The position numbers and the translations under genes were made by a program. This document shows positions 3,663 through 33,698 of a stretch of DNA of 64,000 nt, one piece after another (within the stretch, counting starts at the first letter, position 1; every line of letters starts with the position of its first letter). The DNA comes from Coptis chinensis (Eukaryota; Streptophyta; Magnoliopsida; Ranunculales; Ranunculaceae): contig CM027380.1 of NCBI GenBank assembly GCA_015680905.1, positions 35,394,001 to 35,458,000 on the forward strand, given 5' to 3'. A model generated the notes under the pieces. The model was not told where the DNA came from. It made no database searches and saw only the letters and a program-made list of their open reading frames with translations.

Positions 3663-3663
3663 G

Positions 3664-8575: not shown

Positions 8576-8772
8576 ATATTAAACAACCACGCATAATGAA
8601 AATAACCACATTATGTTAAAATTTTCATTCGAAGTACATTTCACTACAAAATTCAAATTACGGAAATAAAACTTACATGAAAATAAATGACAATAATGAA
8701 ATTACAAATAAAAATAGAACATCAAACGATACTATCCCTAATCACTCCTGTACTGGTAGCGGAGGGCACACG

Positions 8773-9900
8773 CTAAGGAGATGGCTCCTGAGCTCCCGAT
8801 GGGCCAGCACCATTCGTCCTTCGGCGACGACGCTCGTGCCTCGATGGTGTGTCCTCAGAAGGAGAGTCCCCGTGAGGTGGGAATCGTGCGAGCATGTCGG
8901 TCCGGAACTGGCGCTGAGCTTCTAGCTCGGCCCTCATCTGTTCCCACCTCTCATCCTCTCTCCGGGTACGGATCTCGAAGTTATGATGGATAGTTGCCTG
9001 TCGAGTCCGGAGGTCTTCGCAGATGGTGTTGAGCGAACGCATGCCACGATGAATTACGGCCATGCGTTCTGCATCTGACTAGCACCTCTCCAGGGCATCC
9101 GCATCAAAACAAGTCAAATCCTCCTCATCCTCCGAGGCATTCTCGTTTCCCCCATCCTCCTCGGCATTCTCGTTTCCCCCATCCTCCTCGTCTTCTTCTC
9201 TATCCTCAGCCAACCTCCAAACTCGTTGGACACACTCCTTATAGATGCAAGGGTTTCGGTGTAAGGTGATGTATGTCCTATCAGACGCCTGAGCTGCTCT
9301 CAACTTCAGCATGATCTTGGTTATCAACAAGGGAGAGGTGCAACAGACTTCCCTACTCCCCTAATCATGCTAAGCAAAAACTCTAAGATGCAGAACTCGT
9401 ACTTCTGCTCCTGGAGTATCCATAAGATGTGGAGGCAGTTCAGGCCGATGTCGCTGACCTTCTCCTTCCCCAGGATGTTCCGACCAATCCACTGAGCTGC
9501 AGCCAGCTAGTTGGTCCTAAGGGATGCCTGGTGAACACAATGCGATCTCGCATTGTAGTTCCCTTCTGTAACTATCGCGTTCATCAATGGCTCTACCCCA
9601 TTATATTGGGACTCCTGTAACGTGACATCCAGATAGATTCTAGGCGGAATCTCAACCAACAACCCAGTAGTCACTTCCTTCCTCCTCTTTGCCACCACAA
9701 CAAAAATCCTAGTCCCTTCCAACTCCCTCGTATTGTAGAATCCTCGGACTAAGTCTTCGTGGTAATAGGCTTCAGTCGAGTACCACAAGCTATTCCAGTC
9801 TCGACTGATCATTTCGTCACCGTAAAAACCGGCGAAGTGGTCACCTGTAAAAGCTTGCTCGGTAAAATTCGCGTTGTTGAGCCATTGGAAGTTTGAATAC
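8773..9900 (-). pseudogene. Element A accessory gene, resembles plant-transposon/Athila ORF-1-type protein (fossil)
   Basis: A minus-strand coding relic. The upstream part reads SRDWNSLWYSTEAYYHEDLV followed by RGFYNTRELEGTRIFVVV. A middle part has ITKIMLKLRAAQASDRTYIT and an acidic repeat (EEDGGNENA twice). The downstream part is highly charged (TRREDERWEQMRAELEAQRQ) and suits a coiled coil, then ends Ser/Arg-rich. The 'FYN...v.V+.R...' pattern recalls the accessory protein of Athila-group elements, but this is from memory of the family and not a search. Element D has a homologous region from 63,300. The region is broken. Confidence 0.4.
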
Positions 9901-10578
9901 GGTTTGAGGTTTGTAGAAGGTAAGGGGAAGCAATGAGGGACACCTCACTAAAAAGAACGATGGTGGTGGTGGTGTGGTGGCGCGGCAGCACCAAATTTTT
10001 TTATTTTATTTTGATTTTTTGGTGGTTTTTGTTGATTTAAATTGGTGGAGGTTGTGGGCGGTGCGGTTGGAGTCGATTTGGGTTGGGTCTTGGATTGTGA
10101 GCGTGGGTAATTGGGTTTTGTTTTTATTATTATTATTTTTTTTAGGTTTGTGGAAGCTTTTTTAATGGCGTTAATGGCGGTTTGGAGAAGATGAACGCAA
10201 CTGTTGAAGGTAAGGGCACGGGTGCGCTGTCGATGGGCGCGGGTTGGGCCCAAGCCCAATTCGAAATTTGTGAATTTTTCGATTTTTTCGCGAAACTTCA
10301 AATCAAAATTGCCGCTTCGTTACCGATCCGATATTTGCGAATGAGATATGAAAATGATCAGGAGAGAATTTCCAATCCAATGATCCATAAAACACTCTAT
10401 TCCGACCGTGGATGACATATAGGAGAGTGGAAAATGCCTCGAAGTGCGTGCATGATGTACGTTTTGCGAACGACTGAACTCTAAATTCATAGATTATGTC
10501 AACCCGAATCGGAATACAATTAAACGGCCTAAGCAATTCTAATGGGACATAAAACATTTTAGGATGGAAACACGAACA

Positions 10579-10593
10579 CCCCACCCCCAAACA
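10579..10593 (-). promoter_or_regulatory. Element A polypurine tract after the gag-protease unit
   Basis: On minus TGTTTGGGGGTGGGG, about 420 bp downstream of the basic-tail protein. It is matched at 62,589-62,603 in D, 22,185-22,200 in B and 44,460-44,480 in C. Confidence 0.6.
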
Positions 10594-11011
10594 ATTTTTT
10601 TACAACGAAGCTTAGAAAATTTGTTTTTAGCAGTGGGTCTTTTAAAGTCAGATTTCCGAGACTTCCTAGTTTACTATGTTTATTATTTAATATTTTTTTA
10701 CTTTTATAAGGAAAAACAATGAGCAAGAAAGACATAATTCACCCCGTAGAGAAACATGACTCAAAAATCCGAGAAAAACATGCAAGAGTGGAAAACGTGA
10801 ATTATGTTAAACGTGGACTTAGGATCCGGTACTTACAGCCACACACTCCATAGGGAGGGCCCGGTTACCTTAATGGTGCACTCACCAATATATGAAAATG
10901 AAAAGAAATGCACCAAACACAAAAGTTGAGTCGTTTATAGTCAGATACTCGAGACTTTATCTAAACATATGTATGAACATGCAGTTTATCATATATCAAC
11001 AACCGAAATAG

Positions 11012-11752
11012 TTATGGATCATTCCATAAATAAATATCACAGACAACATATCCAAACACAATCAAGCACCAAGATTTCCTATGACGCAACCTAGTAAAAT
11101 GAAAGAGAAGTCGGATAACCCTATTACTTAACCTAGCATGCACCTTCTTTTTCATTTTTGAACGAGAGGGTGTCCTAGTGAATAAGTGTGGAAGAGTGAA
11201 TGGTTGTGGAGAATATGGTGGATATGGGTAAGTTGTAGAAGGAAAGCATGGAAAAAATGAGGATGTGGGTTTAGCACAAAACTCATTCATAGTGTAGGTA
11301 GGGACTGTCTCCAGTCTGAAAATGAAGGTGTCAAACGCTTTTGTCTTCTGAAGTATTTGTTTACTAGGTGGATATAAAAACTTATGAAGAACAGAAGAAA
11401 CAAAAGGATCGAGTGCAAACTCGAGATTCCTTTGAAAGGGTGGAAGGAGGGAAGTCGAGGTGGGTGTTGTGGAAAGTAGTTCTTGATAGGGTGAATTATC
11501 ACCTGCTCTAAGAAACTCATCGAATTGCTCATCTTGATTGGTCATATCCTCGTTACTATGATAGTCCTCTACATCTTTGAGGAAGTCATCTATCTCATCC
11601 TCATCCGTAATATGTGTATCGACTAGTGTAGGGATGGAAATGCTGGAGTCTGAACTTCCAAAGGAAAGAAATTTGGGCATATGATTATTAGGGAACGTGT
11701 TGTTGAAATAATCTCGAGCAAAGCTCTCGATCATGCTAACCTCTCCATCCAT
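11012..11752 (-). CDS. Element A basic-tail protein (246 codons open), conserved in A-D
   Basis: Follows the protease directly, where reverse transcriptase would be expected in an Athila element. It has an acidic N-terminal half (residues about 40-85, TDEDEIDDFLKDVEDYHSNE), a central Pro/Ser stretch (LLPPFQRNLEFALD), a Pro/Tyr patch (TYPYPPYSPQPF) and a basic tail (KMKKKVHARL...RLRHRKSWCLIVFGY...WNDP). B, C and D keep the same order of patches. No enzymatic motif is visible. The tail could bind nucleic acid or be a localisation signal (inference). It belongs to a fossil element. Confidence 0.55.
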   Translation of the reverse strand: MDGEVSMIESFARDYFNNTFPNNHMPKFLSFGSSDSSISIPTLVDTHITDEDEIDDFLKDVEDYHSNEDMTNQDEQFDEFLRAGDNSPYQELLSTTPTSTSLLPPFQRNLEFALDPFVSSVLHKFLYPPSKQILQKTKAFDTFIFRLETVPTYTMNEFCAKPTSSFFPCFPSTTYPYPPYSPQPFTLPHLFTRTPSRSKMKKKVHARLSNRVIRLLFHFTRLRHRKSWCLIVFGYVVCDIYLWNDP

Positions 11753-11767
11753 AGACGAATCGGGTAA

Positions 11768-13219
11768 CTATGTCTTTGTTTTAAAAACATTGACTTCAAC
11801 AGCAAGATGGCCAAAAGACATGGACATTGAACCATTGCGGCAATTAATGAGCGCATTGGCAGTTGCCAGAAAAGGACGCCCTAAGATGATCGGGACAGAG
11901 TCGTTAATGACTTTTGTATCGAGGATGACAAAATCAGCCGGATAGTAAAAATCCTGAATTTTTAACAGAACATTTTCGACGACACCCTTATGATACTTAA
12001 TAGACCGATCAGCTAATTGCAACGTCATTTTAGTAGGTTGCATCTCGTCTAGACCTATTTGTCTATACAAATAAAACGGGAGTAAGTTAACACTAGCCCC
12101 CAAGTCTAATAACGCGGTCGTCGTATAAGAATCTCCTAAAGTGCATTGTACAGTAGGACGACCAGGGTCCTTAACAATTCCATTATGTTCAGATAGAGTT
12201 GGGAATTGTTTTGTTAAAAAGGCGTCTTTTGGTATATTGGTCTTACGCCTAGTAGTACACAATTCCTTAAGAAACTTAGCATGGTGTGGTAGCTTTTTAA
12301 TAGCTTCGAGGAAGGGAAGGTTTATAGTTAGATTCTTGAAAACATCCCTAATCTCCTCATAATTTGTATCCCTAGTTAACACGGCTAATTTTTGTGGAAA
12401 CGGTGGTTTCTGTCTATATTTAGCAATGGTATCACCTGGATGTTTAACCGTGGCTTTCTGTTTCTTTGGTTGTGTTGTAACTGGTACCTCTACAGTGGTA
12501 GGCTCTTCAGTTTCTATTTCACTATCTAGTAAAATAGCAGGTGTAGGGGCAACTGGTGGGGTAACTATAGGCGTAGTTACTTTGTTATCAACCACTCTGC
12601 CAGAACGGAGAGTGGTGATGGCCTTTAGCTCACCTACATTTTCATATTCATTACTAGTATTATCGGTTACCTCAAAGGTTGTATTTGTTGTTTTAGGATT
12701 AGGTATTTCGTGACTTGGAAACACACCTTTGGGTTGGGCTTTATCTTGAGCCAACTGTTGGGTTAAATTATTAACGGATTGTAGAAGATGTTGGTTAGAT
12801 TGAGCCATGGTTTGGAAAAGTTTTTGGCTTACTTGTATGAAGGTGTCAAGACGATCCGGTTGTGTGGGTGTAGTAGTCACGGGTGGTGTGACTGGAACTA
12901 TTTCTCGTGAATTATTTATGGGTGGATTTTGATAGTTATTATTTACCGGAACGATACCTCTATTAGCATTATAATTATTATAACTACCTTGACTTTGTGC
13001 TTGACCTTGTCGAGGTTGCACTTGGTTGTTATAATTATTAAAATTACCCTGACCCTGTCCTTGTCGTGGTGGAGCTTGGTTAAAACTTTGTGTTGGCCTA
13101 ACATATTGATTATTGTACCCTGGAGGTGTGACGTGTTGGTTATTTCTCCAACCGAAGTTGGGATTTTGTCTCCAAGGGGCGTTAGGTTCACTATTAATGG
13201 AACAAGCCTTCATAGGCAA
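11768..13219 (-). CDS. Element A gag C-terminal part and aspartic protease (483 codons open)
   Basis: One long minus-strand open stretch. It starts in a Gln/Asn-rich nucleocapsid-like region (residues about 15-110, repeated GQGQGNFNNYNNQVQPRQG), passes through GVFPSHEIPNPK...LKAITTLRSGR, the Athila-type end of gag, then PFLEAIKKLPHHAKFLKEL and a retropepsin domain at about residues 345-470: DPGRPTVQCTLG, the active-site loop LLDLGASVNLLP, DFVILDT and ILGRPFLATANA. These match the gag-protease junction of Athila-lineage Ty3 elements, where DLGAS replaces D-T/S-G. The protease would mature gag in virus-like particles. The frame stops shortly after the protease, with no polymerase following. Confidence 0.85.
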   Translation of the reverse strand: MPMKACSINSEPNAPWRQNPNFGWRNNQHVTPPGYNNQYVRPTQSFNQAPPRQGQGQGNFNNYNNQVQPRQGQAQSQGSYNNYNANRGIVPVNNNYQNPPINNSREIVPVTPPVTTTPTQPDRLDTFIQVSQKLFQTMAQSNQHLLQSVNNLTQQLAQDKAQPKGVFPSHEIPNPKTTNTTFEVTDNTSNEYENVGELKAITTLRSGRVVDNKVTTPIVTPPVAPTPAILLDSEIETEEPTTVEVPVTTQPKKQKATVKHPGDTIAKYRQKPPFPQKLAVLTRDTNYEEIRDVFKNLTINLPFLEAIKKLPHHAKFLKELCTTRRKTNIPKDAFLTKQFPTLSEHNGIVKDPGRPTVQCTLGDSYTTTALLDLGASVNLLPFYLYRQIGLDEMQPTKMTLQLADRSIKYHKGVVENVLLKIQDFYYPADFVILDTKVINDSVPIILGRPFLATANALINCRNGSMSMSFGHLAVEVNVFKTKT

Positions 13220-13227
13220 TAGGGGCG

Positions 13228-14140
13228 AGTAAGTCGGGATACTTAGGGCTCCAACAGAAAACTACATGGATTTGAATTTACATTCATGACGGGGATAGGC
13301 TTTTGTTGAACGTAAATGGCCTCTACCTTTTTAGTGAGTGATTCGATTAGAGTTTTAAGCTCGAATCGTGTTTAATTTCAAACATACCGGGCGGCTTTAA
13401 CTGTATTTGATGAACTAGCGGAGCGTGGATATCATAACTACCCCCAGTTGTTATTTAAACTTAGTTTGATCCTAAAAATTTATAAGCCTCCAAGGATCCT
13501 TTGCTTAAGAAACTACCCCCATTCATTATGTTTAGGACTTCTTTATGGTGGTGTAGAAGTCCTTTGAAAAGGCACACGAACTAACGTGTCTTTTCGCTAA
13601 GTTATGATGTGGACACTCTATAAGGAGATCGGTGAAACGATTCCAAGCCTCTGAAAATGATTCATGAGGATTTTTGTCGAAAAGAAATGAATCTTGGAAA
13701 GCATCTCATCCGTCTTTAGGGGTGGGTAAAATGTTCCATAAACAAATGAACAAGTTTAGCCCACGAGTCCACGAATTAGGCGTTTGGGCGATTAACCAAG
13801 ACGCCTCCTTATCGGCTAAGGTGAAAGGGAATACCCCGAGTTTAATTTGTTCCGCACCAACCGTAGGATGGTGGAATGTTGTTAGGACTTGTTCAATCCT
13901 ACGCGTGTCTTGATAAGGTTTTTCATGGTCTAATCCATGAAAAACGGGTAACAAATTAAAATATTTGGGGATTCGAAATCCCCACCGGGTCTACTAGAAC
14001 GATGCAAGATTTGGGGCTATCGCCAAGGCTTTGTAGAAGTCGAGAGAGGAGTCTCTTCTTCGCCGGGCATTGTGTCGTGATGTGTGTGAATTAGTAGCTA
14101 GAGGTGTAGTGGGTGGTATACTAGATAGACTTGTTTGTTG
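13228..14140 (-). pseudogene. Element A gag, capsid region (fossil)
   Basis: Minus-strand homology to the capsid part of gag in B, C and D: LPVFHGLDHEKPYQ...RIEQVLTTFHHP...VFPFTLADKEASWLIAQTPN, then ESFSEAW, DTLVRAFF and SKGALEAY-type segments down to a Cys-containing piece near 13,250. The FHGL...FPF.L.DKA..W pattern is typical of the gag capsid domain in Athila/Tat elements. It is broken and therefore a fossil. Confidence 0.75.
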
Positions 14141-14429
14141 ACGTTATTGTGTAATTACGTTCATGTTTTGTTCGCCGGACCTTAATCTCATACAAGGCTA
14201 AAACCAAACTTAGCTAAACACATCAACACTCCAAACAATTCTGATATACTAGTATAAAAACCTCTAACGAGAGATCGCGAGGTGTGGAAGAAAGGAATAC
14301 CTGATTAGGTCCTTGCTTCGCTTATGAATAGCGTCTTGTTTACGCGTGTTCAGTGTATATAACAAGTTAAAACACTAAAAAACTTGAAAAATCAAAGTTC
14401 GAATCAAAACTGTAGAATTCCGGAAAAAT

Positions 14430-14585
14430 TAGCAAAGGGCGCGGCGCGGGTGCGCTCTCATAGGGCGCGGTCGCGCTCCGTGTAATTTTCAAATTACAGT
14501 GTTTTTAGGGCGGGTCGCGCTCGTGTTCCAGGCTATAGGGTGCAGGTGCGCTCCTTATAGGCGCGGTCGCGCTCATTGTATTTTT
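14430..14585 (-). repeat. Element A leader, GC-rich short repeats
   Basis: Several copies of (G)GGCGCGG(G)TCGCGCTC in otherwise AT-rich DNA between the primer site and gag. Equivalent repeats are in the leaders of B (18,620-18,725) and C (47,710-47,930). They may form structured RNA for dimerisation or packaging (inference). Confidence 0.7.
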
Positions 14586-14704
14586 GTCAAGAACTTTTCA
14601 ACGCTGAATCGGAAAACCACAGTATGATTCAAACAAGGGTGGGTGGGTGAAAATGGGACTTTAAGAAAAGTACTTACACTACGAAAAACAATGCGAAAGT
14701 GAAA

Positions 14705-14724
14705 CTAAGATGGCAGCGGTGCCA
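14705..14724 (-). promoter_or_regulatory. Element A primer-binding site
   Basis: Minus-strand TGGCACCGCTGCCATCTTAG, two bases after the 5' LTR end. The TGGCrCCGCTGCC start is shared by all five family members. Confidence 0.85.
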
Positions 14725-14726
14725 TT

Positions 14727-16249
14727 TGATATATGATAAAATGAAATAGTTTACCTACGAAATGAACGATGAACTCAAAACGTAACTAAACTAAAACTAA
14801 TTTATGTGCCTATGATTATCAAAGATTCTACTCTCAATCCTATGAGATATAGTGGAGTAGATGATTCGTTCCACTCCTAGTCCTTCCGCATGCTGTGTTT
14901 TCTAGTCTAATTACTCTACTCTAAGTCTAATGAGAGATTTACGAAGTGTCAACTAGACTACGATGCAACTACTCACAAGATGCAACTAGTCGGTTATCAA
15001 AATAACTATGGGAATGCTACGTTGATTCGATTATAAGGAGTTAGAGGGGGATTGATTCCACCTTAACTCAACTTAATCCTATTAACGGCGAATCGTCAAA
15101 TCATCAAATTGAATCGCCCATGAACAATTGGTTCTTCCTAATCCCTAATTACACATGGCATTCCTACCAATTCATAACTAGCATGTGAACGATTAAACCC
15201 ATTCTCATGGTGAACTAATCGTTTCTAGAGTGGAAAGGAAATTACGACGACTTCTACGATAATCGAATCAAGCTTTCATCAAGGCTTCTCAACCCCTCTA
15301 ATGGAGGTTTAGCCGAGAATCATTACTGTAATCATTTCGATTAAATTTAAACTAAACATGATATAAAAAATTAAAATTTACTAATCTAAATTAAACAATA
15401 ATTAAAATCTAATTAATAACTAAGAATTGAATAACAAGTAATAAATGAAATCAGATCTAACACAAATGTAAATGACAAGAATCGAAATTAACAAACTAGC
15501 TATTTTATTAATCAAACTAATTAAGAGTAATAATTCTAAGAGTTTAATCTAAAACAAGAATTGGATTTGAAACTAAACTTAATTAAAACAATTAAATCTA
15601 GATCTAGAAGTTATTCTAATGGCTACTTTCTATTTTAAGCTACTTTCTATCTACCATTCTCTACTAAAAAATCTACCATTAACAAAGAGATAAGCTTTGG
15701 TTTTTATACTTTCAGATCCAAAAATCATGCATGGGCTTGGAGCCATGTTTTGGGCCAGAGAATCAGGCCCAAAGCCCAATTCTTTCAGTCCAAAAAGGCC
15801 TCTTCAGCTGCAGTTGGCTTCAACAGACTTTTCATCCACTTCTGCTCCTCTGATTGGATCATGGCTTAGAACCTTGGAAATCTCTTTCCGAGCCGGTCGT
15901 TTTGACATAAGGTAGGCCCCATTCCGAGGTCTGAGTCCAAAGATATGGCCTTCGAAAGTTCTCACGACTTTGTGTCTTTGTTTACGCTTCTCGCGTCGAC
16001 TTTTTAGCTTTTGACCGGGATTTAGAAAGGCTTTGTCTTCTTGAATCTTGGCCTTTAATCACGGAACTCCTTAGTAACCGACCTTTGCTCCTTTATTTCG
16101 CTAAAGTGGCACATTTCTGCACATAATGGACTTTGAAACCTGAAATGCATAAAAACACGTGTCGGTGTTAACTCTTAATTATTACTCACATAATTGGTCT
16201 AATAGTATGACTGTTACAGGGTTAAAACTACAGTTTTGGGCTCTTATCA
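14727..16249 (-). repeat. Element A 5' LTR (1,523 bp)
   Basis: On plus TGATATATGATAAAATG...GGGCTCTTATCA, followed by the target copy ACAAG at 16,250-16,254. Almost equal in length to the 3' LTR. Confidence 0.9.
15699..15712 (-). promoter_or_regulatory. LTR TATA box
   Basis: Minus-strand CTGAAAGTATAAAAACCAAA. The same GTATAAAAAC(C/A)AAAGCTT stands in the LTRs at about 4,642 (minus), 17,216, 24,706 and 36,411 (plus), in the position expected of the LTR promoter. Confidence 0.65.
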
Positions 16250-16721: not shown

Positions 16722-16726
16722 ATAGA

Positions 16727-17786
16727 TGATAAGAGCCCAAAACTGTAGTTTTAACCCCTTAACAATCGTACTTTTAGACCAATTATGTGAATAATAAGTA
16801 GACCAATTATGAGCCACTTTAGCGAGATAAAGGAGCAAAGGTCGGTTGCTAAGGAGTTCTATGATTAAAGGCCAATTTTCAAGAAGACAAAGCCTTTGTA
16901 AAGCCCGGTCAAAAGCTGAAAAGTCAAAGTCCACGCGGGCAGAAACAGTGCACAAAGTCAGCAGAACTTCCGAAGAGCATATCTTTGGACTCAGACCTCG
17001 GAATTGGGCCTACCTTATGTCAAAACGACCGGCTCGAAAAGAGATTTTCAATGGTCTAAGCCTTGGCCTAATCAGAGGGGTAAAAGTGGATGAAACATCT
17101 GTTGAAGCCAACTACAGCTGAAAAGCTCATTTTGGACTAAAGAAATTGGGTTTTGGGCCCGATTTTCCGGCCCAAAACATGGCTCCAAGCCCATGCACGA
17201 TTTTTGGATCTGAAAGTATAAAAACAAAAGCTTGACTCTTTGTTAATGGCAGTTAGGTTAGGAAGCTAATGTTAATGGAGTTTAGGGTTAGAAAAATATA
17301 GATCTAGATTAGTTTTTAGATCTAAATCTAGTTTTTTTACATTCATTCAATTAGTTAGTTTAAAATCATATTTTAGTTTTTAGAATAAAGTATTAGTTCT
17401 TCATTTCAATTTAGATTATTGTTTAAATTCTTATTTAGATTTAGTTGTCTTAAATTCACAATTAGTTATTCATAATCTTAGTTCTAAATTAGTTTTAATT
17501 TCAGTTTAATTTAATTATGTCTTATTGTTATTATTGTTCTTGTGTTGGGAATGGTAGTATAGAAATTTCACATCAAATCATTACTCTCACCATTGTTCCT
17601 TTTGGGTTTGATTAGTTGAATTCGATTTAAGTCTAGAGGTTTAAGAGTGGACAAATCCTTACTCATTATATTGCATGATTATGTTTTGAGAGTAAGAAGA
17701 ATTGATTTAAACGTAAGAACGGTAGGATTACGTATTAGTGTTGTTAACATTAATATTTAGGATTCTATTATTTTTATCGTTTATCA
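16727..17786 (+). repeat. Element B 5' LTR (1,060 bp)
   Basis: TGATAAGAGCCCAAAACTG...CGTTTATCA, preceded by the target copy ATAGA and followed by AA and the primer site. Slightly shorter than its partner. Confidence 0.9.
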
Positions 17787-17788
17787 AA

Positions 17789-17808
17789 TGGCGCCGCTAC
17801 CATCTTAA
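17789..17808 (+). promoter_or_regulatory. Element B primer-binding site
   Basis: TGGCGCCGCTACCATCTTAA, two bases after the 5' LTR end. Confidence 0.85.
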
Positions 17809-17939
17809 TCTCGTTCTAGACAAGAATTCAATTGCTTGAATCCAAGGGGCAATCCCCCATTCCCTACCCACCCACCCTTTTAATTTTTCATTCTTATTTC
17901 TTGAATTTTCGGAACTGTTCATTGTCTTAGGCATAGTGG

Positions 17940-18725
17940 CTGCGGATTTACAGAGAAAAACACTGCGGTGAAGGTATTTCTAAATTTTTGAAAATTCTGA
18001 AAATTTTCATACATAATATTTAATATGCTTTTGATTTACTGGAATATTTTCAGATTTTTCAAAGTTGGTTTACCTTGTGAAAAAAATACGATCTTTACAG
18101 TGCTGCATTTCAGTTTTCACACCGTATGTTCTTGAAAAACAGACGAGTAAGGTTACTTAGGGAGTTCTAAAAATTCTATAATTTTTACAGGAGTATCTAT
18201 CCTAAGTCAGGAATTTGTAGTAAAAATTTGACGAGTTTTTGATTTGTTTTGACCACCTAAATAATAGAGTGTTTCCAGTGTGTTTCTGCAGTGTTGCAAA
18301 CACTTAATATCTGGAACACCAGCCGATAAGGAGAGGTTGTAGAACTCCAATTGCTCTAAAAATTTTATAGGAACAAGTAGGATCTGTCAGGAGTCTCCAG
18401 TAAAATTTGGCAATTTTTGGCTTTGTTTTGATGGGTTAACCATTCGGTTGTTTGTATTGTATCAGAAAACTGTTTTGCAAACTTTGCAGGGCAGTAGAGG
18501 GACTTTCATAGCTCCGATTGATCTGAAATTTTCTAGGCTACTTGATAGATGCCTTCGCAAATTACTGTAAAAATTTCAAATTTTTGGAGTACGATAAAAA
18601 GCCTAAAACACGAAAACCCTGAAGCGCGACCCGTGCCCAAACCGAGCGCGACCGCGCCCAAAACACTGGACATTCGAAAACCCTGAGCACACCTGCGCCC
18701 AAACAGAGGGCACCCGCGCCCTCGA
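17940..18725 (+). repeat. Element B leader: diverged 170-180-bp repeats and a GC-rich block
   Basis: Three diverged tandem units (starting near 18,160, 18,344 and 18,508) share the order 'ctcc-att--tctaaaattTTaTAGG...aGtAAAAatTT...TTTTTGG-tttg'. They are followed at 18,620-18,725 by GC-rich pieces (GAGCGCGACCGCGCCC and similar). The same arrangement is at 47,710-48,480 in element C. Confidence 0.65.
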
Positions 18726-18999
18726 AGGAAAATTCAGCATGAACAGCCCAATTTTCACAGGTTACTTCAAATTTCTATTTCTTCAAGTTATTCAGTGTTT
18801 CTAACTTGTTAAATACACTGAGATTGCGTATACAAGACGTTATTCAAACACGTAGCAAGGAGGCATTCAGGTACTCCTTCTTCCACTCCTCGCCTCTTCT
18901 GTCAGAGGAGTTTTAATTTTAGTATAATCAGTCTTGTTTTTCATAGAAATAAATACAACACGCCTATCTAGAATTTCACACACTACACTTGCATCAATG

Positions 19000-20310
19000 G
19001 CTAAAGAACAAGAGACTCCTCTCTCTGATTTTTATAAAGCCTTAAACGATGGCCCTAAGTCGTGCATCGTTCTTGCAGACCTAGTGGGGGATTTTTGAAT
19101 CCCCCCTAATATATTTAACTTGTTACCGATTTTTCATGGTTTAGACCATGAGAAGCCTTACCAGCACATGTATAGGATAGACCAAGTTCTCACTACATTC
19201 CATCATCCTAGCATAAGTCCAGATCAAGTTAAACTTAGGGTGTTTCCTTTCACCCTAGCCGACAAGGTGGCATCTTGGTTAACTGCCCAAACGCCAAACT
19301 CTATGGACTCATGGGCTCAACTTGTTCAATTGTTCATGGAACAGTTTTACCCACCACTGAAGACAGATGAAATGCTTCACAAGATTCATTTCTTCAGCCA
19401 TAATCCTCATGAATCCTTTTCAGAGGCCTGGAATCGTTTCATCGATCTTCTCATTGAATGCCCAAGATCATAATCTTGCGAAAGACACGCTTGTTCGTGC
19501 TTTCTTCAAGGGGCTTTCACATTATCATAAGGAGGTTCTAGATATCATGACTGGGTGTAGTTTTCTTAGTAAAGGAGCCTTGGAGGCTTATAAATTCTTA
19601 GAAGATCAATCTAAGAAGAACAACAATTAGGGGAGGTAACGATTCCTCCCGCTCCTCTCCTTCTTCTCTTGAGGTTAAACATGATCCCGAGCTTAAAACT
19701 CTTATAGATGCCCTCACTAAAAAGGTAGATGCCATCTCTATTCAACAACAACCCACTCCAGTCATGAACATTAACTCTACTCGTTGTAATGTCTGTTGTA
19801 GTCTTGAGTATTTCGACTTCTATTGTCCTCTTGTCTATGCACAAATACCACCACAACCATCACACTTCAACCAGTTAACTAAACATCAAGGACAAGGAAA
19901 CTTAGGTGACCAGAATAGAAGTTTAGTACCCATAACCCAGAACTATCAACATCAAGACATGAACGCTCAACAAGCTTTAATTCCAATACAACCATCTACA
20001 GACAAAGTTGTAGTGACCTTGTTGGAGAAACAAAATCAAATTATGCAACAAAACTCCAACTTGATGAAAGATCAGCATGATCAAAACTCTAATATGATGA
20101 AACAAACGATGCAAATGATGCAGTCTTTGTGCCAAAAGGTTATTGACATGTCTTCTAACCAAAATAATAACCAAACCGGCGTGTTTCCAAGTCAAGCAGC
20201 ACCTAATCCTAAGTCAACAAACACCGCCTTTGAAATAAATAGTATTTACTGTAATGGTAATATAAACTAAGGGGACCTACAGGCAGTCACTACCCTTCGT
20301 TCAGGGAGAG
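19000..20310 (+). pseudogene. Element B gag (fossil)
   Basis: Plus-strand capsid homology with the same blocks as the A, C and D copies: LPIFHGLDHEKPYQHMYRID, VFPFTLADKVASWLTAQTPN, DEMLHKIHFF, ESFSEAWNRF, DTLVRAFFKGLSHYHKEVLD and LSKGALEAYKFLEDQSKK. A Cys-containing piece, a Gln/Met-rich region and GVFPSQAAPNPKSTNTAFE follow, the last being the Athila-type gag C-terminus. Gag would form the particle. The copy is broken. Confidence 0.8.
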
Positions 20311-20324
20311 TAGTTCATAACCAA

Positions 20325-21235
20325 GTGACTATGCCTAAAGATTACCCGCAAACTAAAAATGATACCATACCAAATACTATAATAGAAACTGAAGACCCTA
20401 CAACTGTAGAAGTACCAGTTAAACCACAACCAAAAGAGAAAACATTACAAGACCCAATAATAGAAAGTGAAGACCCTACACCTGTGGAGGTTCCAATATG
20501 GACACCTAGCTGGAAAACAGATAGAGATAAAGCAAAGACTAATAAAACTTTTATCCCTTTTGCTAAAAATAGCGATAAAGCACCATATCCCCAAAGACTA
20601 GTTGTGTTTAAAAATGATGAGAATTTTGATGAGATTAGGGAAGTGTTTAAAAATTTGACTATAAACCTACCTTTTCTAGAAGCTATAAAAAGTCTACCTG
20701 AACACGCTAAGTTTCTAAAAGAGTTGTGCACCAAGAAGAGGAAAACCAACATACCCCACGAAGCATTCTTAACTGAATAATATATTTCTTTATCTGAACA
20801 TAACAGAATTGTTAAGTTAAGTACAAGGACCCCGGTCGCCCCATCAGACAATGCACCTTAGGTGATACCTTCATAACAACTGCTTTATTAGACACGGGGC
20901 TTGTGTTAACTTACTCCCTTTTTATTTATATAAACAACTAGGTCTAACAAAACTTCAACCAACCAAAATGACTTTTGCAGTTAGCCGATCATTCTATTAA
21001 GTATCCCAAGGGTGTAGTTGAAAATATTCTCGTTAAAGTTCAGGATTTTTACTATCCAAATTTACTTTGTTATTCTTGACACGAAAGTGCTCATGATTCC
21101 ATTCCCATCATCTTAGGAATGCCCTTTCTTGGCAACCGCCAATGCCCAAATCAATTGTCGGGATGGCTCAATGACTCTTTCTTTTGGAAATCTTTCTGTA
21201 GAAGTTAACATGTTTAGACAAAAACAGGGACAACT
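20325..21235 (+). pseudogene. Element B protease region (fossil)
   Basis: Contains the acidic linker (IETEDPTTVEVPV, present twice in related form), YPQRLVVFKNDENFDEIREV, NLPFLEAIKSLPEHAKFLKE, and retropepsin remnants including LADHS, KYPKGVVENILVKVQ and NAQINCRDGSMTLSF. It is clearly homologous to 11,768-12,400 in A and 45,183-45,940 in C. The copy is broken. Confidence 0.75.
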
Positions 21236-22004
21236 AGGTTTGCCTATAGAAGGGAAAGTGAAGTCCATTGAGAGTTTTGTACCTCACATTAGTGCGGCTG
21301 ACACTTTAGTCCCCACACTAGTAGATACCCCTCTTATGGAAGAAGACAAGGATCACAATTTCTACTCCCTAGACATAGATAACATCAATGAGGATTTCCT
21401 TCTACTCTTTTGCAACCCTTCTTTGCCGCCTTGCGAGTTCTCTCCTATTGAAATCCATTCATCTCTTGATGCCATGACGGAAGAAGAATTTTTCGCCCTC
21501 TATCCCAGTGATTCTTCTTACCCACCTATTGAGGAATGTCTTGCATATCTCAAGGCCTCTGATGATATAGACCTAAGAACACTAGTTGAACACCATTCAC
21601 CCACCTCACATCCTCATGTCACTCATTCACCTTCCATCACGAATGTTCCTTGCCCTCTACCTTTTCAAAGAACCATTGAGTTTGTACTTGACCTTGGCAT
21701 TTCTCTTATGCTTCATAACTATCTAAAACCAACTGGTGAAGAAGTAACACCCAAGGACAAGCCACCTGACACATTTTCATTTTTTCCATTTTTTCCTTCT
21801 CAAAATTATCTACATCCTACGTATCTTCCACAACCATCAATTTTCTCACGTTCATTTACTTGGCATCCCCTTCGTAAGAGGACAAAGAAGAAATTGTATG
21901 CTCAATTAGGTTTTAGATCTATAAGGCTTTGCTCTCATTCCACTAAGCTACGTCATAGGAAATTTTGGTGCTTAATTCTGTTTGGATGGTGCATTCCATG
22001 TTAA
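21129..22004 (+). CDS. Element B protease end and basic-tail protein (291 codons open)
   Basis: Begins in the last strand of the protease domain (NAQINCRDGSMTLSFGNLSV), then runs through an acidic part (LMEEDKDHNFYSLDIDNINED), CPLPFQRTIEFVLDLG, and a Pro/Tyr patch (YLHPTYLPQPS), and ends in the basic tail (RKRTKKKLYAQL...KLRHRKFWCLILFGW). It is the best-preserved member of the conserved post-protease protein, with the same patch order in A, C and D. No RT motif is present. Function is unknown; the tail could bind nucleic acid (inference). Confidence 0.6.
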   Translation: MATANAQINCRDGSMTLSFGNLSVEVNMFRQKQGQLGLPIEGKVKSIESFVPHISAADTLVPTLVDTPLMEEDKDHNFYSLDIDNINEDFLLLFCNPSLPPCEFSPIEIHSSLDAMTEEEFFALYPSDSSYPPIEECLAYLKASDDIDLRTLVEHHSPTSHPHVTHSPSITNVPCPLPFQRTIEFVLDLGISLMLHNYLKPTGEEVTPKDKPPDTFSFFPFFPSQNYLHPTYLPQPSIFSRSFTWHPLRKRTKKKLYAQLGFRSIRLCSHSTKLRHRKFWCLILFGWCIPC

Positions 22005-22184
22005 TTATTTGTGAAAAGACCCACAACTTTTTCGATTGTTGATATATGGTAAACTGCATTTTAATACATATATATTAGTAAGTCTAGGGAATCTGACTTT
22101 AAAAGACCCAAGTTTTCGTACAATACCAACTTTATGGAATATAGGCCAAACAAAATTTTCAAACTTAAAAAGAGTTTTCCAATT

Positions 22185-22200
22185 TTGTTTGGGGGTGGCG
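22185..22200 (+). promoter_or_regulatory. Element B polypurine tract after the tail gene
   Basis: TTTTGTTTGGGGGTGGCG, about 180 bp beyond the tail protein. Confidence 0.6.
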
Positions 22201-22392
22201 TATTTTGGTATTCATTTTAAATCATGTTGCCACCCTAAGCCTGTCATGTTTACTTCAGTAGAGTTTGTGTTAGTTAGTACGTACCAGTTTAATTGTGCTT
22301 CATATTATCATATCATCTTTACAATATTTCTATTACAGGTACTCCCAATTTTTGCCACGTTTCTATGGAAAATTCTTTCCTTATCTCTTTAC

Positions 22393-22430
22393 ACTTTGAG
22401 GACAAAGCGTTCGATTGTTTGGGGGTGGGA
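22393..22430 (+). promoter_or_regulatory. Element B second (internal) polypurine block
   Basis: CTTTGAGGACAAAGCG, then TTGTTTGGGGGTGGGA. This copies the terminal arrangement at 24,121-24,155 (CTTGAGGACAAGC, then TGTTTGGGGGTGGTT). A weaker third copy, TTGTTTAGGGGTGGTA, is at about 22,571. Confidence 0.65.
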
Positions 22431-24000
22431 TAGAAACATTTGCAAAAATTAGACACTTTTAGGATGTAAATTACGCACTTTTATTTATAAAATGTTAAAA
22501 ATTATAAAAATTAGTTAGTTACATAATTTAATTGTGCTATTGAATTGTTTCATGAACCCCCTTCTCCCAAATTGTTTAGGGGTGGTATAGAAACACGATG
22601 TAAATGTTAAGCACATATTAGGTTGTATATTACGTATTATTTGTCTTAAAAATAATAAAAATAAAAATAAAAATAAAAATAAAAAGTTTGTGCTATACAC
22701 TTAGGAATATTGGTATTGTTTCTTTCTCTATGCTCTTAATAATCTAGAAGTCTCACGTAGCTTTTGCATTAGAATAGTTTTTAGAAACTTAGGTTAATAT
22801 GTAGGTAATAATCTTTGCATCTATCTATAAATATATTACATGAGTATCTATGATTGTTTGGAAGTAAGTTTCTGAAATCTAGGCTAGAGTACTTATTCTA
22901 CAAATCATGTGAGAATATAGCCTAAAGCCTTATATGAGTGAAACATTTGAGAATTGACACAAGGGAGAAGTATATTCTGAATAGAGAAATCACACGTCCA
23001 CTTGCTTGACCACTATACCATGTCCTAAGAGAGAATTTAGGCCCTTTTTAGATCGATATAGCTAGAAATTCTGACCTAAGTATATTTTCCGCTAGTCGCC
23101 CCACTGAGCCTTTCATTAGCCCTTTCATAAACCACAAATCCTTTACCCTGTTACAAAACAAAAAAAAAGTAAAAAAATTCAACCTACCCAATTTAGATAA
23201 GTCTGAGAATAGAATAAGGAAGAAAGAAGAAGAGAAACACCTGTGTAAACAAAAGTTAGTTAATTGCTTCAGAAAATAAAGAAAAGAAGTTTCCATCAAA
23301 AGAAAAGAAAAATAAAAATAGAAATAAAATAAAAACTCTAAAAAAATAGAATAAAAGGAGTCAAAAGCCAAAGAAAAAGAAAAAAAAATATGGCTAAGGA
23401 TGGAAACAAAGTGTAGAAGCAAAAGTAAATAACAAGGTTTTCTCTAGTTACATAATATGAAGACTCTATTATCTCAGACTTGTCCCTTTTGAATATCCAT
23501 TTCCTTCCTTCTTAAACCATCTCCTAATCCCCCCAACACCTAATAAAGACCTCTAGCTCAATTAGGAATAGGTTAGTGGGATGGTAAGTGGTAGATGTGT
23601 TTGATCAACTTCGGCTTCCTTGTGTGTCATTTAGATTGTAAGGTAAAGTATGCCCACTGCACACTGGAGTAGCAAAACTTGAGTGGAAAAATCAGAGTGA
23701 TTTTTGTCTTGACTTTTATGTGAGAACCTACTTAAGGACGCTATTCCAAAGTTTCAGAAACAGACCTGTTACTGCATTTCATAGCATTACTCATTGTATA
23801 GATGTTTATTCATAGATGATTGATTATTATGCATATATTAGCTTAGGTGTCGACATGATTATTCTGTATTCATTGCTAGTAAGATGTATAGATAATTGAG
23901 ACATAAATAAGGAAACAATAGTTTTATTTCTTAGTCGTTGTAGTATAGATGAAGTTTGTGAGTACCTTCACTGGAAAACTCTCACGAGGCTATAACTCGT

Positions 24001-24021
24001 CCACTAGGGAATTCCTAGTGG
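24001..24021. repeat. Conserved palindrome upstream of the element B 3' LTR
   Basis: CCACTAGGGAATTCCTAGTG plus G, the counterpart of 5,321-5,341 in A. Confidence 0.75.
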
Positions 24022-24120
24022 TTTAAGGCCTTGTTACATATGGTCAATGCAATCGCACTCAGCGAAACGAGAGTATATAGAACTCCATTTTTGGTCACTT
24101 ATTCTAATTTCTCATCTTTG

Positions 24121-24155
24121 CTTGAGGACAAGCAAAATGCTGTTTGGGGGTGGTT
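24121..24155 (+). promoter_or_regulatory. Element B terminal polypurine tract
   Basis: CTTGAGGACAAGC...TGTTTGGGGGTGGTT immediately before the 3' LTR. Confidence 0.85.
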
Positions 24156-25267
24156 TGATAAGAGCCCAAAACTGTAGTTTTAACCCCTTAACAATCGTAC
24201 TTTTAGACCAATTATGTGAATAATAAGTAAGAGTTAATATTGATTACGTGTTTTTATGCATTTTAGGCTTCAAAGTCCATTATGTGTAGAAATGTGCCAC
24301 TTTAGCGAGATAAAAGAGCAAAGGTCGGTTGCTAAGGAGTTCTATGATTAAAGGCCAATTTTCAAGACGACAAAGCCTTTGTAAAGCCCGGTCAAAAGCT
24401 GAAAAGTCAAAGTCCACACGGGCAGAAACAGTGCACAAAGTCAGCAGAACTTCCGAAGAGCATATCTTTGGACTCAGACCTTGGAATTGGGCCTACCTTA
24501 TGTCAAAACGACCAGCTTAAAAAGAGCTTTCCAATGGTCCAAGCCTTGGCCCAATCAGAGGAGCAGAAGTGGACGAAACATCTGTCAAAGCCAACTACAG
24601 TTGAAAAGCCCATTTTGGACTAAAGAAATTGGGTTTTGGGCCCGATTTTCCGGCCCAAAACATGGCTCCAAGCCCATGCACGATTTTTGGATCTGAAAGT
24701 ATAAAAACAAAAGCTTGACTCTTTGTTAATGGCAGTTATGTTAGGAAGCTAATGTTAATGGAGTTTAAGGTTAGAAAAAGATAGATCTAGATTAGTTTTT
24801 AGATCTAGATCTAGTTTTTTTATTCATTCAATTAGTTAGTTTAGAATCATATTTTAGTTTTTAGAATAAAGTATTAGTTCTTCATTTCAATTTAGATTAT
24901 TGTTTAAATTCTTATTTAGATTTAGTTGTCTTAAATTCATAATTAGTTATTCACAATCTTAGTTCTAAATTAGTTTTAATTTCAGTTTAATTTAATTATG
25001 TCTTATTGTTATTATTGTTCTTGTGTTGGGAATGGTAGTATAGAAATTTCACATCAAATCATTACTCTCACCATTGTTCCTTTTGGGTTTGATTAGTTGA
25101 ATTCGATTTAAGTCTAGAGGTTTAAGAGTGGACGAATCCTTACTCATTATATTACATGATTATGTTTTGAGAGTAAGAAGAATTGATTTAAACGTAAGAA
25201 CGGTAGGATTACGTATTAGTGTTGTTAACATTAATATTTAGGATTCTATTATTTTTATCGTTTATCA
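24156..25267 (+). repeat. Element B 3' LTR (1,112 bp)
   Basis: TGATAAGAGCCCAAAACTG...CGTTTATCA followed by the target copy ATAGA. Confidence 0.9.
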
Positions 25268-25272
25268 ATAGA

Positions 25273-28269: not shown

Positions 28270-28890
28270 ATAGCACTATATATTGTTGTATATTTGAGAT
28301 AAGATGTCTTACTATGATCATATTCAGTTCAGTTAAACTGTAGTATGCTCTCTAAAGTGAACTTATATAGTGGAGTACATATGAGATAAGATGTCTCAAT
28401 ATGATCATGTTTAGTTTAGGTCAACTGTAGTAAACTCTCTAAAGTGAACTGATATAGTGTTGTACTTGGGAGATAAGATGTCTTGATATGATCAAGTTCA
28501 TTTCAGGTAAACAGTAGTACGCTGTCTAAAGTCGACTTATATAGTGTCGTACTTTGGAGATAAGATGTCTTGATAGTTCAGTTTAGGTAAATAGTAGTAC
28601 GCTGTCTAAAGTGGACTAATATAGTGTCGTACTTGGGAGATAAGATGTCTTGATATGATCGAGTTCAATTCAGGTAAACAGTAATACGCTGTCTAAAGTG
28701 GACTAATCTAGTGTCGTACCTGGGAGATAAGATGTCGTAATATGATCTTGTTCAGTTCAGGTAAACTGTAGTACGGTGTCTAAAGTGGTCTTATATAGTG
28801 TCGTAGGCAAGAGATAAGATGTCTTAATATAATCATGTTTAGTTCAGTTAAACTGTAGTACGCTCTCTAAAGTGAACTTATATAGATGTG
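28270..28890 (+). repeat. 87-bp tandem array, about seven copies
   Basis: The marker GAGATAAGATGTC recurs at about 28,295, 28,383, 28,470, 28,557, 28,637, 28,723 and 28,811, with spacings of 80-88 bp. Each unit also carries AAACTGTAGTACGCT, CTCTAAAGTG(A/G)ACTTATATAG and GTCGTACTTGG. The last unit ends about 30 bp before the start codon of the next gene. Confidence 0.9.
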
Positions 28891-30513: not shown

Positions 30514-30951
30514 TCAGTTACTAACTAAGATGATCAGGAAAGCACGAAGACAGAAAAGCCTGCTATGGCGGTGGATATCATCAGCCTTGTTTGGATAAGT
30601 TATGGCAATATCCTTGGCTGTCTCCCTAGCCTTAAGAATCTCTTTACATTTAATTTGACCACGTAGTGAAGCACAAGCTTCTGTTAAGGGAAAATACCTC
30701 ATCCGGAAATCACTCGGCTCATTCTTGTTCATTTCATAACGGATCCTTTCATAATACCAGCTAGGTGGACGTTGGGTGGAAAGCCCGGTTAGTAGTGCCA
30801 TATCCGACGACTTGAATGAGATGTACTTGCCACCAACTCTGAAAGTTCCTAGAGCGATTCTCATTTTCAGCAACTCTGAAACAAATTTGAGGTGGCTAAA
30901 ATGATTGTATGCGGTTGTTTTCAGAATCCCTAGAGTCCACAGTCCCATCAA
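30514..30951 (-). pseudogene. DUF1985-like N-terminal domain of the Ulp1-transposon protein
   Basis: 145 open codons on minus: HFSHLKFVSELLKMRIALG, FRVGGKYISFKSSDMALLTG and a WYYERIRYEMNKNEPSDFRM stretch. The 'F.v.GK.i.F...dmaLLTGL' signature is that of DUF1985, a plant domain usually found upstream of a Ulp1 cysteine-protease domain in MULE- or CACTA-type transposon proteins. In copy 1 the protease is missing, so this is a truncated gene. The first 20 or so codons overlap an inverted repeat (30,889-31,081). The true first exon and start codon are uncertain. Confidence 0.55.
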
Positions 30952-31081
30952 CCTTCAGAAGAAACCAAAACGGAGAACTCCAAAAAATTTCTCCTTCATC
31001 AGTATCAAATTAATCAATCTGCTGCTCTCCAGGGACTCTAGGGATCCTAAAAAACCCACATATAATCATTTTAGCCACCTT
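30889..31081. repeat. Inverted repeat built from coding sequence (about 53-bp arms)
   Basis: TGAGGTGGCTAAAATGATTG...CCCTAGAGTCC at 30,889-30,941 is repeated in reverse complement at about 31,029-31,081 (GGGACTCTAGGG...AATCATTTTAGCCACCT), with about 87 bp between. The left arm includes codons for NHFSHLK of the DUF1985-like segment. Confidence 0.75.
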
Positions 31082-31090
31082 AAACTGGCT

Positions 31091-31719
31091 GTAAATTTCT
31101 TCCCCTTCGTCTTATAACTACTGCACACATGGACACAATTTGTAAGCACATTACAACAACATAACTAATAAGTGGACAAGAAATAGCTTTGACACATCGT
31201 AGATACCATAGATGATTAATTCTAATGTTAATGCTAAATCATACATCAGAACAAAGGAATTCCTCATCAGCTGGTTACATTATCAAACACATTTATCACA
31301 ATATCAAATGAAGTAGAAAACGCAACCAATTATTTCAATAATAAAATTCGTGCTCTTTTGACTGTGCAATATTTGAAGTCAACATTGTGAATTCCTCAAC
31401 CACCATAATTTTCTATATATAAAAAATGGAATAAAAAATGCACCTTTTAGGGTTTGGTATTATAGTGGGGATCCTATAAAAACCTCGAGCAAAGTGATGG
31501 AGACAGCAGATAGATTGCTCAAAGCCTTACTTAAATTGGGTGATAGATTAAGGAAAGTAATGAAAAGGTTGAGCATTTCATCTTAATTGGGATGAAGGTG
31601 AGAAGTTAGAGGTGAGAAGTGAGCTTCAGTTGAAATCCTTATAACTTAATGTTTCCAACAACCATTCCAATTCACAAAATTCCCCTAAAACTTAAGTGAT
31701 CTGCTACACCAGACATACT
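31091..31719. other. Spacer between the two Ulp1-transposon copies
   Basis: About 630 bp, AT-rich, no open frame recognised. It should contain the outer end of copy 1 and the outer end of copy 2, but I could not define terminal repeats. Confidence 0.4.
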
Positions 31720-32597
31720 ATAAATGAAGTCGTCGGCAGTACCAGTCAACCACGTGTCCGCATCAAATTATATTTCCAAAAGTAGGATAAAGGTGCATTT
31801 AAGTGGGGGATATGTACAAAAGAGTATCATCAAAGTCATCAGAGATCTACTCTTATCAAAGAACGTTTATGATGTCGCAAAGCAAATTTCCGCTGTCTTA
31901 GAATGGATATTTTTCTGACCTGGGCAACAGAGATCTATCTTTTTTTCAAAGAACACTCATAAGTTCTCAGTGGGAGCATAAACTGTCTTGGTGGAGGGGA
32001 TGTTCAGACTGAACACAAAAGTAATTAAATACAATCCAGCAGCAATGAAAAACAAAATCCAAGAGCACGTAATTAGTTTGTCCATTCCATCAATGAGCCA
32101 CTAAGAATTTTTTAGCTTTTTTCACAGGTAAGCAGGCATGGAAGTCAACCCGTAGGCTAGAAGATCTTTGGCTATCGTATTTTTGATGAAGTTCCCAGGG
32201 CGGCCAAATCGTAAGAGATAGCAAATACGTTGTCTCGACAGAGGAACATAATTACTCACGATAATTGGTATATGATATACGTGACACTTTAATTTATTTT
32301 TAAAGATAAAAGGAAGACACTTCCAAAGCTAGGAAGGGCTCGACACAGCCGTTACTGATTGAGTAATAATCAGACAAGCATCCTGCGTAAAAATTGTTTA
32401 GAACTCAACAAGTAACTATAATGTCTTACAACAGTCACACAATGTCCTATTGAAGTAGTAGACTTTCAATCCAGAATTAGAGTATAACTTAGTGTTTGGA
32501 ACATATTTAAACAACCATTTCCACCTCAGCAGTAGCAGCAGTTACTGCATTTTCAACTTCAGATATACCCTTGACTGTTGGAGTTTTCTCTCCCGCA

Positions 32598-33671
32598 TTA
32601 AAGTCCAAAGACCGAACAACTTTCCTCATGCAGTACTCTTCGTCGGTCATATATGCTACACTCCAACAAGTCCTTTGCTATTATTTTCCTGATATACGTT
32701 CGCCTGTTTGATTGAAAGACGAGTGGCAAATTTCTGAGTAGGCAATCAGCAAAGGCAAGTGTGTATGCACCACAGCTGGTGTCGTCGTCCTGTTTGGCAT
32801 ATTCGGCAAACTCCAAATTCCACTGGCGACCTAGTTTTGCCATGTCTATACACTCACTATCTGAGCTCAGAAGTGCGTAAGGGAGCACCATCAACAACTT
32901 TGTCAAACGTGGTGCGGGGTTCATAGCCTAGACGACACCATCTTTCGGCTTTTCCAACGAGTTGTAGATTTGAACAGTCAACATGACAAAGTTAACGATG
33001 ATGAGGATCCAATGCACTCCTTCAACATTGACCGTCATCATCAACCCACGACAGTTTCTCAAGTCTAGCCTCGAACTATCACACTGAACCAGTTCGATGA
33101 TACGGGTCTTTAAATTACCTACAATTTGTAGTCTTGTTGCACAAAGTTTATCTTCTACGGGAATTTGCTGGTCTTCAAAAATTGTGGCCAATCCATTGTA
33201 CAAATCACACAAATAATGTTGTTATTACAATAATAAAATAAAATAAAATAAATCATTATACTGAATAAAATAAGGAAAGAATAAATCATTATAGAGTTTC
33301 ATAGAATAAAAGACACGAAACGTGTGTGAAATTACCGAGAACCACGACTCTGCAACTATGATGTACAAATTCTCTATTCCACAGGACTGTGCTACGGAAG
33401 TGTACCACCGGCCTAGTATGCACATGTACGAGTCCAGTACCTTGAACCCAAAAACAATAATAATAATCAACATCAAGTATATTAAGAAGAAGTACTTTAA
33501 TAGACAGAGACATACCACATCATTAAGCCATCCTCCCCCGAATAGTCCATAGAAGCTGTTGATGTCAATTTGAAACCCACTCCCATACCGTCTAACAATG
33601 TCAAAGTGACTGGTTTCATCATTGTCATGCTTATTCCAGTAATACGGCACTTGTACATTCGAGGTATACAA
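32598..33671 (-). pseudogene. Ulp1-like cysteine protease domain, spliced
   Basis: Three coding blocks in order. Block 1 ends GLFGGGWLNDV at 33,516. A 75-bp phase-0 GT-AG intron (33,441-33,515) leads to block 2 (33,336-33,440), giving WLNDVVLDSYMCILG, the Ulp1/SENP entry motif. Block 3 (about 32,928-33,212) has the catalytic His in VEGVHWILIIVN and a YNS where the family has YDS. The next frame (32,598-32,924) has WNLEFAEYAKQDDDTSCGAY, the Gln and catalytic Cys. Ulp1-type enzymes cleave SUMO-like conjugates; in transposons the role is unknown. The Asp-to-Asn change and a stop between the last two blocks suggest decay. Boundaries of block 3 are uncertain. Confidence 0.7.
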
Positions 33672-33698
33672 TTCCGTCAGGTCATCTCCAACACTTTT

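Follow-up and report, generated by a model that had tools for sequence, protein, structure and literature searches.

The closest described counterparts of the elements reported here are RLG_Sabrina_SA and RLG_WHAM of wheat and barley, high-copy retrotransposons which encode GAG and a protease but no reverse transcriptase (RT) or integrase (INT), and which, in the parts of the two papers used here, are called semi-autonomous and are thought to be mobilised by relatives with the same primer site and long terminal repeat (LTR) ends (PMC9744471, PMC5738225). In the same parts, the barley paper places both in the Athila clade, RLG_Sabrina_SA measures 8.1-8.3 kb and shorter Sabrina variants have unrelated short coding segments (PMC9744471, PMC5738225). 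RLG_Quinta, as presented in the sections dealing with it, encodes Gag and a domain of unknown function without RT/INT and has RLG_Cereba as its autonomous partner; the criteria given for their cross-mobilisation are that primer site and LTR termini be identical and that one half of the LTR be conserved (PMC11302176). TR-GAG elements are defined, in the passage stating the rule, by GAG, or GAG and an aspartic protease (AP), between LTRs and with no pol (PMC6022998). The present work concerns a 64,000-nucleotide stretch of Coptis chinensis DNA, referred to as the window (C4 35394001-35458000 of the 935.6-Mb genome), with four elements, A, B, C and D, that have gag and protease (PR) and a 0.72-kb segment at the place of pol. 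These elements very probably represent a large family of semi-autonomous LTR retrotransposons in which pol was swapped for this segment and for which Pol would come from RT-bearing relatives.

Like RLG_Sabrina_SA and RLG_WHAM, the A-D family combines gag and PR without pol, ends shared with RT-bearing copies and a high copy number; the likeness is to the published descriptions, in the parts considered. The Sabrina replacements stand in for GAG-Pro (PMC9744471, section 2.7), whereas in the A-D family the segment stands in for pol. The family also differs from the available parts of the Sabrina_SA/WHAM account in two ways: its genome contains RT-bearing copies aligning on both sides of the swap, and a long 3' region has been retained by some of the pol-less copies. 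As in Quinta, the primer site and LTR termini are common with the partner, here the candidate RT-bearing copies, and gag exchange is described between Quinta subfamilies; Quinta and Cereba are, in the sections concerned, centromere-specific, with GAG and DUF1, no protease named there and a partner integrase with a CR domain (PMC11302176). The Quinta type of build (Gag and an unknown domain, no protease) is not that of A-D, which have a protease. The TR-GAG parallel drawn in the first-pass annotation, which was made from the sequence alone, fits as a label, since the A-D type falls under the Inpactor rule (only GAG, or GAG and AP), but RLG_Sabrina/WHAM and RLG_Quinta are closer; TR-GAG is an operational bin, not a lineage, and the passage defining it is silent on shared replacement segments or partners (PMC6022998).

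A literature search, judged largely by titles, gave among the titles listed nothing nearer than Sabrina/WHAM, Quinta, TR-GAG and the Athila elements of Arabidopsis. In the last case, Marco and Marin are said to have found in 2008 that Athila copies without pol persist beside fuller ones. The kind of partnership is already known, because Sabrina_SA/WHAM and Quinta have been described; new with respect to the portions of those accounts compared here are the exact swap site with two-sided alignments to RT-bearing copies, the several gag backgrounds and the selection test. The Coptis family offers a countable case in which gag-PR elements and similarly built RT-bearing relatives share one genome, and the question of cis preference for Gag becomes addressable by substitution counts.

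The elements were mapped by self-comparison of the window, boundary motifs and target site duplications (TSDs):

16727-25267, + strand: element B, pol-less, both LTRs, 8.5 kb (LTR pair, primer site and TSD)
16727-17786, + strand: 5' LTR of B
17789-17801, + strand: primer binding site of B, TGGCGCCGCTACC
24156-25267, + strand: 3' LTR of B, with the polypurine tract (PPT) TTTGGGGGTGG directly before it
3664-16249, - strand: element A, pol-less, 12.6 kb, both LTRs (14727-16249 and 3664-5185)
41958-50103, - strand: element C, pol-less, nested inside element F, LTRs 48741-50103 and 41958-42693
57014-64000, + strand: element D, pol-less, running past the window end, 3' LTR at window-equivalent 68059-69437

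The TSD of B is ATAGA (16722-16726 and 25268-25272) and its LTRs are 96.6% identical; the corresponding values are CTTGT and 95.5% for A, and ACAAG and 93.5% (710 aligned bases) for C. The 3' LTR of D was found on the adjoining stretch, about 4 kb past the window, and is 97.0% identical to the 5' LTR, with the TSD ACAAG; the reading of D covers this element except for 64001 to about 67700. At an assumed rate of 1.3e-8 substitutions per site per year, the LTR pairs of A-C date to 1.35-2.62 million years. The absence of pol from B and C had been held not to be due to truncation at an end, both elements having two LTRs and TSDs; A and D, too, have both LTRs and a 5-base TSD.

The coding parts of the elements are given below, where "tail" denotes a linker of about 40 residues together with the segment standing in for pol, following PR:

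19099-20777, + strand: gag of B, PF03732 at 19099-19470, frames broken in B
20825-21215, + strand: protease region of B, DLGAS frameshifted (tblastn with the PR of A)
21216-22001, + strand: tail of B, open, in frame with the PR end (open reading frame, ORF, 21117-22001)
11771-13261, - strand: late gag-protease open frame of A, 497 aa, DLGAS
11015-11767, - strand: tail of A, first ~40 aa being the linker also present in RT-bearing copies, the rest at the RT-RNase H-integrase position
6681-10283, - strand: 3' region of A between the tail and the 3' untranslated region (UTR), at an env-like position, absent from B and C
46827-47354, - strand: gag of C
45330-45722, - strand: PR of C
44645-45330, - strand: tail of C
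60979-61366, + strand: PR of D
61385-62140, + strand: tail of D
38870-52147, - strand: element F, RT-bearing, interrupted by C, with RT, RNase H and integrase above the Pfam cut-off
38870-39913, - strand: integrase of F
40243-40740, - strand: RNase H of F
41053-41649, - strand: RT of F
51284-51589, - strand: gag of F

The Pfam gag family PF03732 was detected in B and C, and gag of A and D was recognised through DNA similarity to them. The PF13650 match of the protease in A was marginal (24.7 bits against a cut-off of 24.3), and the PR of A used as a tblastn query matched B, C and D. A DLGAS-type protease had been assigned to all four elements; B has the motif frameshifted, and the other three have it intact. 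When an uninterrupted RT frame from the same genome (L016) and the RT and integrase of F were used as tblastn queries within the window, all pol matches lay in F and A-D gave none for RT or integrase. Pfam, DNA similarity and tblastn thus bear out the earlier description of A-D as elements with gag and protease but without detectable RT, RNase H and integrase, and of F, there labelled a Tat element, as the sole pol-bearing copy in the window. The 3.6 kb between the tail and the 3' UTR of A are missing in B.

The site of the swap was located by alignment with RT-bearing copies from the same genome, which have the RT motif FMDDFS and the primer site TGGCGCC, a combination that may be Athila-like. 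A aligned with one of them, L023, through the LTR, gag and PR into the linker, up to A 4601 = L023 4429. The alignment resumed at A 5319 = L023 7470, the end of the L023 integrase frame, and continued to the limit of the L023 stretch. Between the two flanks lie 718 bp in A and, from just after PR to the integrase end, 3,041 bp in L023. L022 and L033 showed the same two-sided alignment with A, and L026 aligned on the left only. Both breakpoints fell inside L023 4422-4460 and 7470-7488 in 11 of 16 pol-less copies, a set that leaves out L028; in L019 and L036 the left breakpoint was the common one and the alignment resumed only further in, and in B, C and L030 the left similarity faded earlier, B and C also resuming later on the right. 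Since the same segment occupies the same breakpoints, A-D are not separate deletions, in line with what the first-pass annotation had proposed. In 12 of 17 pol-less copies no stop separates the PR frame from the tail; A has one at the join. The similarity of the tail to RT-bearing copies is limited to the linker, about the first 40 residues (63 in the comparison with L033). Further downstream, the 3' region of A was also matched after the integrase in the RT-bearing L022, L023 and L033; pieces of it scanned with Pfam gave weak matches only, all below the cut-off.

The family is large. A 19-base tail pattern had 3,986 matches genome-wide and an RT pattern, counting any family with that motif, had 4,950, with no match to either reversed pattern; the junction of LTR end and primer site had 8,346 matches in its B-type form (up to 2 mismatches) and 3,365 in its D-type form, with control counts of 0. 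A longer RT pattern was used for the genome count because the first, shorter one also matched a copia-like integrase frame (L014). The junction analysis added 17 places of the shorter RT pattern; the junctions at C1 16351628 and 25818935 were labelled RT by this pattern alone, and the rows L052 and L057 of the gag tree described below were labelled accordingly. Among the matches listed on C1, below 35 Mb, 50 D-type junctions were followed by the RT motif in 13 cases, by the tail motif in 15, and by both in one, where the tail belonged to a neighbouring element; the chance expectation at randomly shifted junctions was 0.55 for RT and 0.27 for the tail. An RT motif lay on the same strand within 9 kb of only 1 of 63 C1 tail motifs, through that same neighbour.

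Twenty copies were picked by eye, approximately every fifth of 100 exact B-junction matches listed, all on C1-C5. The gag-PR-tail layout, with gag and protease and without RT/INT, was present in 12 of them (L017-L021, L025, L029-L031, L034-L036), and RT and integrase were matched in four (L022, L023, L026, L033). L027 is a deletion derivative running into the integrase C-terminus, and the element at the sampled L028 junction is interrupted by a second, tail-bearing element. The comparison of copies with and without RT asked for in the first-pass annotation therefore gave 4 with RT to integrase and 12 with gag, PR and segment; RT and integrase were not found in most members of this sample, and RT-bearing copies were still common at the C1 junctions (13 against 15 of 50). 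In the two remaining copies, L024 and L032, the element itself had no capsid and PR, and a zinc-knuckle ORF region ran into a tail-like end:

L024, 1849-3507: ORF region, CCHC zinc knuckle C-x2-C-x4-H-x4-C followed by the tail-like end
L032, 1956-3624: ORF region of the same composition

The knuckle pattern had 405 matches genome-wide (control 0), often two or three of them at a 90-base spacing, for instance at C1:17003616, 17003706 and 17003796, which suggests tandem knuckles.

The 22-base string of LTR end and primer site is common to the RT-bearing and pol-less copies through the choice of the sample. The LTR start was recognised in 9 of the 11 RT-bearing 5' LTRs fetched, and the PPT was near-identical in one RT-bearing copy checked, L022; the stretch fetched for the L023 3' end (L060) did not hold the LTR. 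RT-bearing relatives that agree in LTR start, primer site and, for the one copy checked, PPT, as had been suggested for a search, are therefore present in the same genome, and such copies are candidate partners of the pol-less ones. Among the matches listed, the highest LTR identity of any RT-bearing copy to the window (90%) was that of L022 with the truncated element E:

35873-37258, + strand: E, LTR and degenerate primer site TGGTGCC of the A-D family, little else matched

Selection was assessed by pooled ratios of non-synonymous to synonymous substitutions (dN/dS) from DNA alignments, with the two wrong frames as controls; the within-clade pairs are not independent and the pooled ratios carry no significance test. 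For PR, the ratio was 0.30 against 0.87 and 0.80 in the wrong frames for the pol-less clade of A (55 pairs), 0.46 against 0.69 and 0.60 for the B clade (3 pairs), and 0.31 against 0.68 and 0.95 for RT-bearing copies (6 pairs). In the same order, the gag capsid gave 0.48 against 0.79 and 0.74, 0.38 against 0.75 and 0.64, and 0.15 against 1.08 and 1.55. Stops occur inside the gag-PR match in 15 of 17 pol-less copies, so individual copies are mostly broken. The low in-frame ratios compared with the wrong frames indicate that pol-less copies were selected for gag and PR: both are under purifying selection in the main pol-less clade, gag less strongly than in RT-bearing copies. Gag and PR having stayed useful to pol-less copies, a partnership is favoured over passive decay.

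The segment itself may encode a protein working for the element, for example one recruiting Pol or packaging RNA, an idea we regard as rather doubtful. The tail is open over at least 251 codons in 5 of 17 copies, with 9-30 stops in the five remaining frames, and a related C-terminus follows the zinc knuckle in L024 and L032, which are without capsid and PR. Against this, dN/dS of the tail beyond the linker, at 0.59-0.72 pooled, hardly departs from the 0.69-0.91 of the wrong frames (A clade 0.72, wrong frames 0.91 and 0.71; B clade 0.60, 0.69 and 0.72; between clades 0.59, 0.76 and 0.72). No codon-position difference was seen and none of 10 pairs showed a third-position excess at p below 0.05; the segment matched no Pfam family, and its structure prediction was uninformative, with a mean predicted local distance difference test (pLDDT) score of 32. 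Early estimates of about 0.29-0.36 (A-type against B tails) and a median of 0.45 (diverged pairs) had pointed to a conserved tail protein; they were discounted because protein similarity had guided the alignments, which also took in the linker. Once DNA alignments and wrong-frame controls were applied, the signal of the segment disappeared, whereas that of PR and gag stayed. The short conserved protein of the first-pass annotation is thus open in some copies, but it is not separate from the PR frame and is not conserved above the wrong-frame controls.

A more far-reaching reading of the family, which we consider improbable, would treat the pol block and the 0.72-kb segment as interchangeable cassettes at one fixed site between PR and the 3' region, repeatedly template-switched; the family would then be a divided genome of co-packaged RT-bearing and Gag-making RNAs, with the segment as a packaging or recruiting part, down to the knuckle-only copies.

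The gag tree was used to ask how far the pol-less copies form one line. It comprised 33 sequences, 17 pol-less, 15 RT-bearing and one unassigned; L048-L058 were labelled RT-bearing by a motif about 4 kb downstream and not from a reading of pol, the L028 row is the inner, tail-bearing element, the L033 row is only 47% filled, L024 and L027 are absent for want of a gag match, and the L032 row, from a neighbouring element, is unlabelled. Pol-less copies fell into three groups interspersed with RT-bearing ones: one of B, C, L030 and L029 together with the RT-bearing L033; one of L034 with L023 and L052; and a well-supported clade of 12 of the 17, to which A and D belong and whose sister group is nine RT-bearing copies. 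This last clade speaks for a single clonal pol-less lineage that separated one time and underwent no exchange afterwards, but such an origin is very improbable: forcing all pol-less gag sequences into one clade cost 143 log-likelihood units (approximately unbiased test, p-AU 3.3e-110) and was rejected. Mosaic copies speak against it as well. In a chunk comparison, B was nearest to C or L030 at about 1,000-4,500 (best match 80-94%) and to L019 or L036 at about 5,500-7,500 (92-97%), and is a 5'/3' mosaic of two sources; L029 carries the tail, yet of its 13 matched 500-base chunks 7 were nearest to the RT-bearing L033 (80-87%). The gag tree and the chunk pattern are most simply explained by exchange between family members, which implies that RNAs of different members were probably co-packaged. 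Of the earlier proposal that a lineage multiplied in the pol-less form, the multiplication stands, with thousands of copies (3,986 matches), but not descent as one clonal line.

That A-D arose separately through recent loss of pol from RT-bearing elements and were dead on arrival is scarcely credible: RT-bearing members sharing the junction are common and L027 is a plain deletion derivative, but the recurrence of one segment at one pair of breakpoints in 11 of 16 copies, the thousands of copies, the association of tail and RT motifs in only 1 of 63 cases, through a neighbour, and the selection on PR within the pol-less clade lead us to reject it.

The preferred interpretation, semi-autonomous elements with a swapped pol, would work as follows. 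Gag and protease would be translated from the RNA of A-D themselves, and RT, RNase H and integrase would be supplied in trans by RT-bearing relatives whose LTR ends, primer site and PPT match those of A-D. The pol-less form would have arisen when about 3.04 kb, from after the protease to the integrase end, were exchanged for the 0.72-kb segment continuing the gag-PR frame, presumably as a loss rather than a gain of pol, and template switching between co-packaged RNAs may later have moved this exchange and other parts among gag backgrounds.

Several observations weigh against this interpretation. Among the matches listed, 8 of the 11 fetched RT-bearing 5' LTRs were 74-79% identical to the A 5' LTR, and the identity to A was 78% for L022, 74% for L023 and 71% for L026; with RT-bearing LTRs only about 71-79% like that of A, the comparison turned up no closely matching partner for A-D. 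The region after the integrase of the RT-bearing L026 did not align with A, neither motif followed 21 of the 50 C1 junctions, and the sample of 20 copies is small. Clear selection at the protein level is not seen in the segment. Past exchange with RT-bearing copies could have imported their selection into gag and PR; the sampled A clade, however, holds only pol-less copies.

Some other features of the window were recorded. Tandem arrays with offsets of about 60 and 87 bases in the self-comparison lie at 37845-38477, downstream of the F integrase, and at 28275-28889. ORF remnants with a Peptidase_C48 (Ulp1-like) match at 32601-32927 on the - strand (22.4 bits against a cut-off of 20.7) lie within 30517-34315 and may be what is left of a DNA transposon that had captured a Ulp1 domain. 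A 274-aa open frame at 524-1345 on the - strand, with no Pfam match at E 0.01, overlaps a direct repeat (33-190 and 585-742, 83%).

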